A DNA stretch of 64,000 nt from an uncultured Ruegeria sp. (GTDB taxonomy: Bacteria > Pseudomonadota > Alphaproteobacteria > Rhodobacterales > Rhodobacteraceae). The notes under the pieces are model-generated. The model was not told the DNA's origin and did no database searches. It saw nothing but the letters and a program-made list of their open reading frames with translations. The position numbers and the translations under genes are program-made. Positions within the stretch are counted from its first letter, which is position 1. Every line of letters begins with the position of its first letter. This document shows, one piece after another, positions 36,304-43,607 of the stretch. The stretch is from NCBI RefSeq assembly GCF_947504215.1, contig NZ_CANNGO010000001.1, forward strand, positions 434,001 to 498,000. Direction: 5' to 3'.

Positions 36304-37293
36304 CTACTGCTGGGCCTTTGACAAGGTCGAATAAAGGCGATGGCAGGATCGCCCGTCTCGTTTAGCCTGATAAAGGGCAAGGTCGGCAGCATGAAGAAGT
36401 TCTTCCGCTTCTGGTGCCCTAAACTGTGTTGATAAGGCGGTCCCAATGCTTGCAGATACGTGGCAAGTCTGCTGCTGGAACGTCATCGGTTCATTCAACC
36501 TGAGGATAAGTCGTTCAGCAATCGACGCGAGCGTTTCTTCACGTGTCAGGCCTTTAAAAATAATGACAAACTCATCGCCTCCGACCCTCGCCACTGTGTC
36601 ATCGCCACGCGTTTCTTCGACCATGATACGCGCCGCTTGCTGCAGGACAAAATCGCCTGCCGCATGGCCCAACCTGTCATTCACGGATTTGAAGAAATCA
36701 AGATCCAGATGCATCAGGGCAAAACTGGAATTGGAAAAAGTCAGGTGGTCAAGCATATGGTCCATTGCCCGCCGGTTTTTCAATCCTGTCAACGTGTCCG
36801 TATAGGCCTTTTCCTCGGCGGCGAGCATGGCCCCCTGAAGCCTGAGGTTCAGAGACCGTGAGGCCTCCATCGCTGCAGACTTGGCCTCGACAAGATACAG
36901 AAGTTCGATTGCCAAATCAGTGCCCGAGAAGTCCGCGCTTGTCAGAGCATAGTCGCGTACGGCATCCAAGATCGAGATACCAAAGGACAGGTTGATGACA
37001 GCCCCTTCGCCATGCTGCAAAGGGGCGACCAATCCTTTTAGGGCAGTGCGCGGTTCATCATGGAACTTAAGGTGCAGCTTTGCACCAGCCATCGACATGA
37101 GCGCAGGAATCGTTGTGACCGTTCGGGGACGGATCAGCTCGAAGATATCCAGAAAGCTGGAACCCACTAACGGGATATTGGGGCGCAGTTTTTGTAGGGT
37201 TGGTCCTGCCTGCCGAATGTCCCCCTTCTCGTCTATCAGCAGGAACATCGGGCACAAGGTTTCGAGAAGGCTCGCCAGGTCTTGGGTGTTCAT
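36304..37293 (-). CDS. Diguanylate cyclase with H-NOXA/HNOBA-like N-terminal domain
   Basis: GGDEF intact (VARVGGDEF), I-site-like RGDD 5 residues upstream; N-terminus CPMFLLIDEKGDIRQAGPTLQKLRP...FLDIFELIRPR resembles the H-NOX-associated PAS-like domain. Confidence 0.82.
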   Translation of the reverse strand: MNTQDLASLLETLCPMFLLIDEKGDIRQAGPTLQKLRPNIPLVGSSFLDIFELIRPRTVTTIPALMSMAGAKLHLKFHDEPRTALKGLVAPLQHGEGAVINLSFGISILDAVRDYALTSADFSGTDLAIELLYLVEAKSAAMEASRSLNLRLQGAMLAAEEKAYTDTLTGLKNRRAMDHMLDHLTFSNSSFALMHLDLDFFKSVNDRLGHAAGDFVLQQAARIMVEETRGDDTVARVGGDEFVIIFKGLTREETLASIAERLILRLNEPMTFQQQTCHVSASIGTALSTQFRAPEAEELLHAADLALYQAKRDGRSCHRLYSTLSKAQQ

Positions 37294-37880
37294 TACTCCG
37301 CACGCGCCCCCAAATCAAAGTGGCGACCTTCGGAAAAAGCACTCTCTACCAGCGTTACTGTGATCACCTCAGCGGTTTCGTGCTGCCCGTCATGCGACAG
37401 TATAACCAGCGCACCATAGTCGTCAGCCATTGCGCGCAACACGCCAACCATGACGCTCGAGTAACCTGGCAAACCCGGATCGCAGAGCAGTTGGTACCCT
37501 GTCATGGATAGTTCTCTCAGTTCGAGCGCTGGCAGGGCGAGGTCGGAGACAGCCAATCTGACACGATCAGACAAATCGTCGAGGGAATGCAGAAACTCCA
37601 CATAGGTTCCGCCGCCAAACCGCAGCAAACGGCGCAGCCCCTCCATGTTTGGGTGAGACACAAGATAGGTGCCGACATCCTCCAGGATTTCCGCTTTCGG
37701 GCGGCCAATTTCTGCGCTCAACACGTCCATAACACGAATGGAGACATCATCATCGTAGATGAGCATTGCCTCGAACTCGACAAAACCCAGCTCCGCAGCC
37801 TCGGTAACGCGCAGCCAGCACGACCGACCATAGGTTGCGCGTACAAAAGACTGAATCGCCCGATTGATCAGACCATGCAT
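37293..37880 (-). CDS. Heme NO-binding (H-NOX/HNOB) domain protein
   Basis: MHGLINRAIQSFVRATYG...EILEDVGTYLVSHPNMEGLRRLLRFGGGTYVEFLHSLDDL follows the H-NOX pattern; abuts the cyclase gene. Confidence 0.82.
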   Translation of the reverse strand: MHGLINRAIQSFVRATYGRSCWLRVTEAAELGFVEFEAMLIYDDDVSIRVMDVLSAEIGRPKAEILEDVGTYLVSHPNMEGLRRLLRFGGGTYVEFLHSLDDLSDRVRLAVSDLALPALELRELSMTGYQLLCDPGLPGYSSVMVGVLRAMADDYGALVILSHDGQHETAEVITVTLVESAFSEGRHFDLGARAE

Positions 37881-38001: not shown

Positions 38002-39561
38002 CTAGAAATCCGTAGGCGCACCGCCTTCTGCTTTTCGGCGCGCGACGAAATCGGCAAGCTCGTCTCGTATCCCATCATCAATGGCAGGCGGTTCAAAGCT
38101 TGAGATAATCTCTTTGAACATGTGATGCGCGCGTTCGGCGGTCCAGATACCACCGGCAACGTCCCATCCTTCGTAGTTTTTCCAATCGCTAAGGAAGGGT
38201 TGGTAAAAGGCTGTGGTGTAGCGGTCCTGTGTGTGCTGAATTCCAAAGAAATGGCCATCGTTTCCGACCGAACGAATAGCATCCAACGCAATTTCATCTG
38301 GCCCCGTTGCCGTCAGTGCGGGATCCATATAGCGCTGAATTTGCTGAAGGATTTCGCAATCCATGATAAACTTTTCCGGGCTTGCTATCAGCCCGCCTTC
38401 GAGCCAGCCTGCGGCGTGATAAACCATATTCGTGCCCGACTGCACCGCAGCCCAAAGCGAATTTGAAGTTTCCCACACTGACTGCCCATCCGGTACATTC
38501 GCCGCGCAAACACCAGAGGATCGCATAGGCAACCCATAATACCGCGCCATCTGCCCCGTCATCTGGGTAGAGCGCATGTATTCGGGTGTGCCAAAAGCGG
38601 GTGCGCCGGATTTCATATCCACATTCGACGTAAAGGTCCCAATCACGCAAGGAATGCCGGGGCGTACATATTGGAACAACGCAATCGCGCATAACGCTTC
38701 GGCCAAAGATTGAGCAACCGCACCCGCCATTGTAACCGGCGCCATAGCACCGGCCAATGTAAACGGAGTCACGACTATGGCCTGCCCACGGCGCGCCAAA
38801 CGCAGGCAGCCGTCAATCATCGGATGGTCGTGTTTCAGCGGTGAGGTCGAGTTGATGTTGGTGTACATCCGAGGTGTCGCCTCAAACTCTTCATGGCTGT
38901 GACCGCCTGCGATGCGCACCATCTCCATGACATCTTCAACGCGTTCTTTCCCTAGCGAGTATGCATGCATCGCTTTGTCCGTCAGGGTCAGCTTGTCATA
39001 CAGCACATCAAGGTGGCGAACACTTGCATGTATATCCACCGGTTCGACCGGATACCCACCCGCAAAATGGATACAGTTAAAATACTGCGTCAGTTTCAAC
39101 AGATTCCGGCACATCTCACGATTGCCGGGAACCTTGGTTCCAATTTCCATGTCCCAATAGTTCGGCGGCGACGAAACATTTCCAAACAGCAGGTTTTTAC
39201 CGCCAATCTCGATCTTTCGACTCGGATTTCTTGGCGTGATCGAAAACTGGCTTGGCGCCTTCGCCACCATTTCCATCACAAAATCACGCCCCATGCGGAC
39301 GTTATCGCCTTCTATGGTACAGCCCGCTTCTCGCAGGATACCGATGGCCTCTTCATTGTAGAACTCGATGCCGATTTCTTCGAGGATACGCATCGCCCCG
39401 TCATGGATCGCCTCAATCCCGTCCTGATCCAAAGGCTCGGTCGGTTGATCCGTGTTGATCGGTGGGTTCCATGGCATTTGATCAATGGCCGCGCTGCCTC
39501 GGCGAGCAGCCGCCCCTGCGCGTCCACCGCCCCGACGTTTGCGTGTTTTCGTGTCGGCCAT
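38002..39561 (-). CDS. Trimethylamine methyltransferase family protein (MttB superfamily, non-pyrrolysine)
   Basis: AIHDGAMRILEEIGIEFYNEEAIGILREAGC...NSTSPLKHDHPMIDGCLRLARRGQAIVVTPFTLAGAMAPVTMAGAV; uninterrupted by amber. Confidence 0.9.
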   Translation of the reverse strand: MADTKTRKRRGGGRAGAAARRGSAAIDQMPWNPPINTDQPTEPLDQDGIEAIHDGAMRILEEIGIEFYNEEAIGILREAGCTIEGDNVRMGRDFVMEMVAKAPSQFSITPRNPSRKIEIGGKNLLFGNVSSPPNYWDMEIGTKVPGNREMCRNLLKLTQYFNCIHFAGGYPVEPVDIHASVRHLDVLYDKLTLTDKAMHAYSLGKERVEDVMEMVRIAGGHSHEEFEATPRMYTNINSTSPLKHDHPMIDGCLRLARRGQAIVVTPFTLAGAMAPVTMAGAVAQSLAEALCAIALFQYVRPGIPCVIGTFTSNVDMKSGAPAFGTPEYMRSTQMTGQMARYYGLPMRSSGVCAANVPDGQSVWETSNSLWAAVQSGTNMVYHAAGWLEGGLIASPEKFIMDCEILQQIQRYMDPALTATGPDEIALDAIRSVGNDGHFFGIQHTQDRYTTAFYQPFLSDWKNYEGWDVAGGIWTAERAHHMFKEIISSFEPPAIDDGIRDELADFVARRKAEGGAPTDF

Positions 39562-39666
39562 CGTCGCCTCCTGCGTTTGCTTTTGTCCAAGCAAGCCCCG
39601 AAGACGGGCATCAAGCCGCTCTGTCTGCGACAGAGTGTGTCGGTTTTTACGATCCGATTGCTGAAT

Positions 39667-40776: not shown

Positions 40777-42180
40777 ATGTCCGTGCAGGGAACCATCCTT
40801 GTCCTCGACGGGGTATCAACCAACCGCATTATGCTGAAGGTTCAGCTGACCGCGGCATGGTACCACGTGGTTCAGGGTGAAAAACTCAAAGGGTTGACGT
40901 CGCTGGTGCGCCGAACCCGGCCAGACTTGGTGCTGACAGCGCAGACATTGCCCGATGGTACTGCGGCAGACGTAAAAAAGCTGATCACAACACAACCAGA
41001 TCTCGTCGACGTTCCCGTTGTCGCGATTGCACCACAGAACGATAATGAGGCGCGTCTGCGTGCATTGGCGGATGGGCTGGATGATGTCCTGACGCATCCT
41101 TACAAAGACGCGCTGCTGTTGGCCCGTATCCGAAGCTTACTGCGCGTGCATGCAGACACACAGGAGTTACAGGTCGACAACGGGGGCCAATCAATCGGGT
41201 TTGCGGAATCAGCCACCGCTTTGATCACACCCCCCCAAACGGCCCGTGTAGACATTCTGGCACAGACAGCGCGAACGGGCTCAGCCTGGCAAAAGGCGTT
41301 ATCCGATCAAAGTCGACATCAGATTTCCTGGCACACTCGGTCAAACTTCAACGGTGTGTTGTCCGGATCAATTCCGGACGCAATAGTGGTTGAATTGGAT
41401 GCAAGCCCCTACGGGTTGAACGTCCTGGCCGATCTCAGATCGCGCAGCGCCACGCGGCACACTGTTTTGATTGGTGTGCTGAAGGACAACAATGCCTCCA
41501 TGGCCTCCGAAATTCTGGACCGCGGCGCCGACGCCGTATGTTTGGGCGGGTTTTGTGCAGAAGAAATTGAGCTACGCCTGAAAAATCAGATAGCCCGCAA
41601 AGCGCGGATAGACCAGATGCGTGCATCGTTGCGACAGGGTATTGCAGAATCCTGGATTGATCCGCTGACCGGCCTGCACAATCGTCGCTACGCGATGCGT
41701 GCTATGGACCAGATTACTCGGCAGTCGATGCAATCCAACCAAGGCTTCGCCGTCATGCTCGCGGATCTCGATCATTTCAAAACAATCAACGACCGTTATG
41801 GGCATGCAAACGGCGATTTCGTTCTGTCTCAGGCTGCCGAGCGTATGCAGAGTATCCTGGGATCAAATGGTTTTATCGCCCGGATCGGCGGGGAAGAATT
41901 CATGATCGGCACGTCAGATCTGTCCCGAGATGCGGCATTGAGGCTTGCAGAATCGCTTTGCAACTGCATATGCGATGAACCCTTTCATCTGCCCGATCAA
42001 CAAGAACCGATCTCTGTCACGATCAGTGTTGGCCTGAAACTGTCGAACCCGTCGAAACCAACAGAAGATCCCCAGTCTTTCGAAAAAGTAATAAGATGCG
42101 CGGACAAAGCGCTCTATGCCGCTAAACGAGCCGGACGCAATCGGGTATGGGTCAGGCCAAGCGCGGCATTATCCAACTAG
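40777..42180 (+). CDS. PleD-like diguanylate cyclase (two receiver-like domains plus GGDEF)
   Basis: N-terminal receiver fold; GLHNRRYAMRAMDQITRQ...FAVMLADLDHFKTINDRYGHANGDFVL...RIGGEEF. Confidence 0.87.
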   Translation: MSVQGTILVLDGVSTNRIMLKVQLTAAWYHVVQGEKLKGLTSLVRRTRPDLVLTAQTLPDGTAADVKKLITTQPDLVDVPVVAIAPQNDNEARLRALADGLDDVLTHPYKDALLLARIRSLLRVHADTQELQVDNGGQSIGFAESATALITPPQTARVDILAQTARTGSAWQKALSDQSRHQISWHTRSNFNGVLSGSIPDAIVVELDASPYGLNVLADLRSRSATRHTVLIGVLKDNNASMASEILDRGADAVCLGGFCAEEIELRLKNQIARKARIDQMRASLRQGIAESWIDPLTGLHNRRYAMRAMDQITRQSMQSNQGFAVMLADLDHFKTINDRYGHANGDFVLSQAAERMQSILGSNGFIARIGGEEFMIGTSDLSRDAALRLAESLCNCICDEPFHLPDQQEPISVTISVGLKLSNPSKPTEDPQSFEKVIRCADKALYAAKRAGRNRVWVRPSAALSN

Positions 42181-42650
42181 TCTTTTTTCTTGCGTGAATG
42201 CGGACCTTTCTGGATCACCTCTTGCAGGCGTTCGGCATAGGTCTGACGCTCTTCATCGCTCATGGCAGTGACCCGAGCCATCCATTGCGCCTGCAACTCA
42301 GATTGCAGATCTGCCGTTGCCTGAGCCTGTTGCTGCAGCAATCCTTCAACCGCAACCGGATCGAACGGAACAGCGCGCAGAGCCGCACTGATGGCTTCAA
42401 ACCCCTGAGTTCGCGCGTTTGACCCTTCTTTGTGCAGTCCGGACAATTCACCCCGCATTGCTTTGCGATCTTCTTTCGGCAACGCACGATAAAGTGCCGG
42501 TCCAAACCCCGGCGGCGCCTTGGCATGATCGCTGCCCTTCACACGCAGCACCGTTCCGACGGCAACACCGACTATCAACAAATTCAGGGCCAGCGACACG
42601 ATCAGTACCACTGACATCCATCGCCGCTTTGTTTTGGGTTCAGCGTTCAT
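42177..42650 (-). CDS. Periplasmic heavy-metal sensor/CpxP-ZraP-like protein
   Basis: N-terminal TM; ALPKEDRKAMRGELSGLHKEGSNARTQGFEAISAALRAVPFDPVAVEGLLQQQAQATADLQSELQAQWMARVTAMSDEERQTYAERLQEVI. Confidence 0.8.
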   Translation of the reverse strand: MNAEPKTKRRWMSVVLIVSLALNLLIVGVAVGTVLRVKGSDHAKAPPGFGPALYRALPKEDRKAMRGELSGLHKEGSNARTQGFEAISAALRAVPFDPVAVEGLLQQQAQATADLQSELQAQWMARVTAMSDEERQTYAERLQEVIQKGPHSRKKKD

Positions 42651-43000
42651 TCCGTATTCTCCAGAAAACTCGTATCAAATCCGAGGTCGGCCACCAGATA
42701 GCTTGTATCCTGCGCCGTCAGCAGGTTGGCCGGATCGGGTAAGAATGTCGGGGCCGCAAAGCCGATCCAGACGCCAGCTGCGCTGGCTGCAACCAAACCG
42801 CCAAAGCCTTGCCAACCGCCAATAGTTTCAAAAAGCCGCGTCCAGGCCCCGCGTTTCGGGCGGGCCGTGGGCGCCAAACGCTCCAACCGAATCGCTTCGG
42901 CGTCCGTTTGGATGCGCACAACCAGATCATCAGCCAACGTTAGCCGATCTCGCCTTGCGTCGGCGAACAGATGATCCAGTTTCAGGTCTTCATCAGCCAT
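42647..43000 (-). CDS. Hypothetical single-TM protein, candidate anti-sigma factor
   Basis: MADEDLKLDHLFADARRDRLTLADDLVVRI...one TM (GFGGLVAASAAGVWIGFAAPTF); between sigma factor and CpxP-like gene. Confidence 0.65.
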   Translation of the reverse strand: MADEDLKLDHLFADARRDRLTLADDLVVRIQTDAEAIRLERLAPTARPKRGAWTRLFETIGGWQGFGGLVAASAAGVWIGFAAPTFLPDPANLLTAQDTSYLVADLGFDTSFLENTE

Positions 43001-43607
43001 TGTCATACCCCAATTCATCTCGTCGGTCGGCCAGTATAGCAGCCAAAGATCGTTTTCCACGCGCCGTCAGGCTTTCAACTGCTTCTACTGAAATACCCAT
43101 GACCCCTGCGATCTCGGGGTTGGGCAGCTCTTCGATATGGCGCAAGACCACCGCCTGCCGCTGCCGTTCCGGCAATTCCGATAAAGCAAGCTGTAGCGCA
43201 TCTTTGCGGGCCTCGTCCTGCAATCGGTCAACCACGCTGGCCTTGCCGTCTTCGGGCTCGGGCACGTCGGACAATCTGTCAGGCCTTTTTTTGCGCCTGA
43301 TGTCCACGCACAGATTCAACGTCACCCGATACAGCCATGTTGACACTTTGGCGGTTCCTGGCACCCAATCTGGCGCCATCTGCCAAAGCCGCATCATCGC
43401 GTCCTGTGTCACATCTTCGGCCTCGGCACGGTTCCCTAGCATACGCAAAGCAACCGAAAAACTGCGTGGTCCCAAACGATCTGTCAAAACACGCGCCGCC
43501 CCGGCGTCACCATCGGCAAAGCGCCTCAGCAACGCATCGTCGCTGAGGTCGTTCGCGGCGAAATCAACGCCGCGAACATCTTGCGGATGGGAGGTCAGGT
43601 CCTCCAT
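42993..43607 (-). CDS. ECF-type RNA polymerase sigma factor
   Basis: RNRAEAEDVTQDAMMRLWQMAPDWVPGTAKVSTWLYRVTLNLCVDIRRKK...LPERQRQAVVLRHIEELPNPEIAGVMGISVEAVESLTARGKRSL. Confidence 0.93.
   Translation of the reverse strand: MEDLTSHPQDVRGVDFAANDLSDDALLRRFADGDAGAARVLTDRLGPRSFSVALRMLGNRAEAEDVTQDAMMRLWQMAPDWVPGTAKVSTWLYRVTLNLCVDIRRKKRPDRLSDVPEPEDGKASVVDRLQDEARKDALQLALSELPERQRQAVVLRHIEELPNPEIAGVMGISVEAVESLTARGKRSLAAILADRRDELGYDNG

Follow-up and report, generated by a model that had tools for sequence, protein, structure and literature searches.

A probable Group 5 H-NOX protein lacking the proximal histidine and the YxSxR motif is encoded next to an HNOBA-GGDEF diguanylate cyclase in Ruegeria

The window, a stretch of 64,000 nucleotides from an uncultured marine Ruegeria sp., carries the gene of an H-NOX-like protein flanked by those of a methyltransferase and a diguanylate cyclase. 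The H-NOX ORF lies on the minus strand, a point absent from the preliminary description of this DNA, and the features relevant to the analysis are the following:

38002 to 39594, minus strand: MttB-family methyltransferase, directly upstream of the H-NOX gene, with a 121-bp gap
37293 to 37880, minus strand: H-NOX-fold protein (HNOB) of 195 aa without the proximal His and YxSxR; ATG at 37880, TAA at 37295-37293
37620 to 37634, minus strand: R83-R84-L-L-R87, family-specific invariant arginines, present in 129/129 members and, as a triad, in none of 41 canonical H-NOX proteins
37569 to 37571, minus strand: codon of Ser104 (TCT), the residue that aligns with the proximal heme-ligating His (Alr2278 H105 / Tt H102) in pairwise and multiple alignments
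37470 to 37484, minus strand: C133-D-P135-G-L137 (CDPGL), at the place of YxSxR, from pairwise and multiple alignments
36304 to 37293, minus strand: diguanylate cyclase partner with HNOBA (2.5e-5) and GGDEF (3e-42) domains, GGDEF and the RxxD I-site being intact

The cyclase gene is the next one downstream, and its ATG overlaps the stop codon of the H-NOX gene as TAATG. The gene order mttB-hnox-dgc was common to the window, Dinoroseobacter shibae (D. shibae) and Phaeobacter sp. G2, while a search upstream of the window H-NOX gene for a full CtrA site (TTAA-N7-TTAA) found none. Elsewhere in the window, a second cyclase gene of PleD/DgcB-like type, with receiver and GGDEF domains, was observed at 40777-42180 on the plus strand, 3.5 kb from the HNOBA-GGDEF gene, and at 42177-43607 on the minus strand the order of ORFs, judged by eye, suggests that an ECF-type sigma factor (42993-43607) precedes two further proteins, an anti-sigma-like one in the membrane and a small membrane-anchored one.

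The ORF had been described as following the H-NOX pattern, and both the profile search and structure prediction agreed with this. Pfam HNOB matched residues 2-156 of the protein (4.1e-20, 72.8 bits, cut-off 25.5), while no NCBIfam model matched it. The nearest solved structure by sequence was the Nostoc Alr2278 H-NOX (phmmer 3e-19), and the AlphaFold (AF2) model presented a confident H-NOX fold (pLDDT 89.7, pTM 0.87), which compared with the Nostoc H-NOX (2o09) at a TM of 0.82 and 2.2 Å. By its profile match and its predicted fold, the ORF is a genuine H-NOX fold of the HNOB superfamily. It is the one HNOB gene of its genome, which also encodes, on another contig (C9:71146-71724), a protein with the FIST domain known from NosP, an NO sensor; the genome may thus hold another heme-NO sensor.

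The pairwise alignment with Alr2278 and the multiple alignments agreed exactly in placing Ser104 (codon 37571-37569) at the position of the helix F proximal His, as previously described. The loss of the YxSxR propionate motif was likewise confirmed, although its register had to be corrected from LCDPG to CDPGL, one residue further on, leaving C-x-P-x-L in its place. Both defining heme contacts are therefore gone from the aligned protein. An artefact of alignment is excluded by 41 canonical H-NOX sequences placed in one alignment with the family: they kept the proximal His in 40/41 cases (Gln in one) and Y/S/R in 41/41, indicating that the residue loss is real. Residue loss in sequence alone is, nevertheless, no proof of heme loss.

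A survey of homologues recovered HNOB genes in 224 of the 298 sampled Rhodobacteraceae genomes, canonical copies counted, and separated two kinds of H-NOX: a canonical one, scoring ~100-146 bits and retaining the His and YxSxR, and a divergent, lower-scoring one, which includes the window protein and in which only two members (L109 and L111) scored near 100 bits. Across 129 non-redundant members of the divergent kind, the proximal position carried Pro in 92 (71%), His in 11 (8.5%), Ser in 10, Ala in 5 and others in 11, and YxSxR was found in none (0/129). Consistently, the 80 named relatives, mostly Ruegeria and other roseobacters, presented the proximal His in no case and Cys at the Tyr position in all. 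The substitution had been treated as unusual, whereas most members of this large Rhodobacteraceae family, which had already been reported, are His-less. At all divergent loci an HNOBA-GGDEF gene was located directly downstream, and the partner cyclases kept GGDEF intact at 184/184 loci and RxxD at 183/184. When 385 genomes were searched across the class, the alignable matches from outside the family were all canonical, with one further weak match (L230).

On a tree of the divergent family, built without the four diagnostic columns, the His and non-His states required at least 11 changes, 4 of them forced by supported branches, a count that cannot separate gain from loss. Trp at the Ser position of YxSxR was evaluated as a co-trait of His and rejected, since the Fisher p of 2e-4 came down to 3 independent pairs on supported branches, with no signal. 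Two single cases were also observed: a canonical YSR-type Rhodobacteraceae H-NOX outside the Group 5 family that carries Gln at the proximal His (L110), and a His-bearing member with one in-frame TAA in the match, possibly a pseudogene (L119, G274:C24).

The His-less phenomenon in Rhodobacteraceae has an earlier description, under the name Group 5 H-NOX. In the part of the review that deals with it, Group 5 is a very large fifth cluster built from the Paracoccus denitrificans H-NOX, with the proximal His in <10% of proteins, mostly Pro at that position and no conserved Cys, and its neighbourhoods were analysed for GGDEF and MTTB genes (Lee-Lopez & Yukl 2022, PMC8738867). As far as this part of the review allows the comparison, the present family resembles Group 5 in its shares of His and Pro and in its GGDEF and MttB neighbours. 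The window protein presents two Group 5 features, a replaced proximal His and an adjacent GGDEF gene, and differs in carrying Ser, which represents a sub-state within the Ruegeria branch. In tblastn, the P. denitrificans H-NOX matched at 36% identity and E 1e-19 with agreeing motifs, a value to be read against the E < 1e-47 given in that part of the review for the edges of the published cluster.

The P. denitrificans pair HnoX/DgcA (Pden_3719/3720) belongs to the same family, with hnoX overlapping the GGDEF gene, although HnoX is only ~36% identical to the window protein; at the locus of the related P. ferrooxidans, the upstream gene is ComEC, not MttB. The axial His is missing from the H-NOX proteins of both P. 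denitrificans and Rhodobacter sphaeroides (R. sphaeroides) (Kumar & Spiro 2017, PMC5588039), and in our alignments the P. denitrificans member presented Pro at the proximal position with RRLLR kept, and the R. sphaeroides 2.4.1 member also presented Pro. An hnoX mutant of P. denitrificans underproduces biofilm and a dgcAB mutant overproduces it, and inhibition of DgcA by H-NOX was proposed (PMC5588039). The biofilm defect was confirmed later in work in which c-di-GMP could not be measured (PMC12582929), and the hnoX phenotype has been modelled as lost cyclase inhibition (PMC5588039; PMC12582929).

This phenotype bears on whether the window gene, having lost its key residues, is a functionless and decaying remnant, which we consider extremely improbable. 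Its dN/dS against relatives was ~0.04-0.11 where computable, revealing purifying selection, and the reading frame was unbroken in nearly all relatives, ruling out gene decay; the invariant motifs of the family and the frequency of HNOB genes among the sampled genomes (224/298, canonical copies counted) argue in the same direction as the P. denitrificans mutant.

Heme might still be bound, through His2, His98, Cys133 or the shape of the pocket alone, and NO still be sensed. H2, H98 and C133 were present in 93, 72 and 67% of the family, respectively, C133 in 81/81 of the close-relative set, and the pocket proline P117 was invariant, while the structure of the Shewanella oneidensis (S. oneidensis) H103G mutant H-NOX in the Fe(II)CO state (2kil) demonstrates that heme can sit without the His. 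However, H2 and H98 also occurred in His-bearing members, none of these residues behaved as a compensating ligand, YxSxR was lost as well, and the consulted part of the Group 5 review reports no conserved Cys (PMC8738867). In the case of His98, suggested earlier as a substitute ligand, the residue stood alongside the proximal His in 7/11 His-bearing members and was missing in 32/118 His-less ones, making a replacement unlikely, and its coexistence with the proximal His ruled out a simple ligand swap. On this balance, we regard continued heme binding as unlikely. A Zn/Cys redox H-NOX of the Vibrio cholerae (V. cholerae) type was rejected, as the family has no conserved Cys set and C133 (67%) is the sole Cys column above 30%.

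A precedent comes from sGC alpha, also part of a nucleotide cyclase system, whose 'pseudo-H-NOX' has the fold but not the heme ligand residues and binds no heme, the real block being an N-terminal extension (PMC8196705). Unlike the window protein, sGC alpha is eukaryotic, forms one fused chain and blocks its pocket with this extension, and no extension of that kind was present in the window protein.

In addition to the arginines, G90, P117, D153, Y155 and G156 were present together with R83, R84 and R87 in 129/129 members, P117 being universal in canonical H-NOX too. In the 41 canonical proteins, the R83 column held mainly P/G and the R84 column mainly E/A/Q/G, and R87 was found in 3. One canonical H-NOX adjoining an HNOBA-GGDEF gene (L082) lacked the RRxxR motif, suggesting that the motif is no prerequisite for mere pairing with such a cyclase, whereas the retention of the triad in His-bearing and His-less members alike suggests that it serves something common to both, which may be a cyclase interface, an anion/propionate anchor or structure. 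The invariance of R83, R84, R87 and G90, the absence of the triad from canonical proteins and the case of L082 would also fit a pocket holding a different, putative ligand anchored by R83/R84/R87, in a sensor that acts on the cyclase; as the arginines could equally be the cyclase contact surface or structural, we consider this reading doubtful. We entertain only tentatively, as a rather improbable history, a repurposing of the pocket in which YxSxR disappeared first, followed in most cases by the proximal His, while the RRxxR cluster arose, yielding a non-heme sensor (or an opposite-side heme site) that would control the core cyclase.

The D. shibae system (Dshi_2815/Dgc1) is a syntenic mttB-hnox-dgc orthologue whose H-NOX is 43% identical to the window protein. 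Like the latter, it has lost YxSxR and kept the Arg triad, and its AlphaFold model agreed with that of the window protein in fold and in the best-matching structures, but it retains the proximal His (LDDLHDR). According to the accounts of this work in PMC7232146 and PMC8846402, the D. shibae protein is an NO sensor that, when NO-bound, inhibits the neighbouring Dgc1 (Bedrunka 2018).

Taken together, we favour, with somewhat better than even confidence, the reading that the window protein is a Group 5 H-NOX and serves the HNOBA-GGDEF cyclase as a regulatory partner, without a His-ligated heme. Gene pairing and published work on D. shibae and P. denitrificans suggest that a Group 5 H-NOX would most likely contact the HNOBA region of its partner cyclase and most likely restrain its c-di-GMP synthesis, and we infer cyclase binding and inhibition for the window protein on the same grounds. 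It could do so either as a constitutive 'switched' (NO-bound-like) subunit of the cyclase or in response to some input other than heme-NO. Of the earlier interpretation, the H-NOX-like character and the loss of both contacts stand, and the best interpretation left is a heme-free partner or a sensor of something else, while the His98 swap is weak.

How Group 5 proteins sense anything is a question posed by the 2022 review (PMC8738867), whose passage on the group mentions neither a group-wide loss of YxSxR nor an Arg triad. The present results add that YxSxR is lost in every sampled member, that the R83/R84/R87 triad is invariant, apparently a new observation, and that the studied D. shibae NO sensor falls in the His-bearing minority of the family, a placement that also appears to be new. 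Across roseobacters and Paracoccaceae, the H-NOX genes of this family carry a heme NO-binding annotation, with NO sensing inferred from D. shibae; since the D. shibae protein belongs to a minority of ~8.5%, its heme-NO mechanism should not be extended to proteins such as that of the window or to most relatives, including the Pro-bearing one of R. sphaeroides. The family of the window protein probably regulates the adjoining c-di-GMP-making enzyme without classic heme sensing, and its natural His-bearing and His-less orthologues, which share the same cyclase partner, make H-NOX action without heme ligation directly testable.
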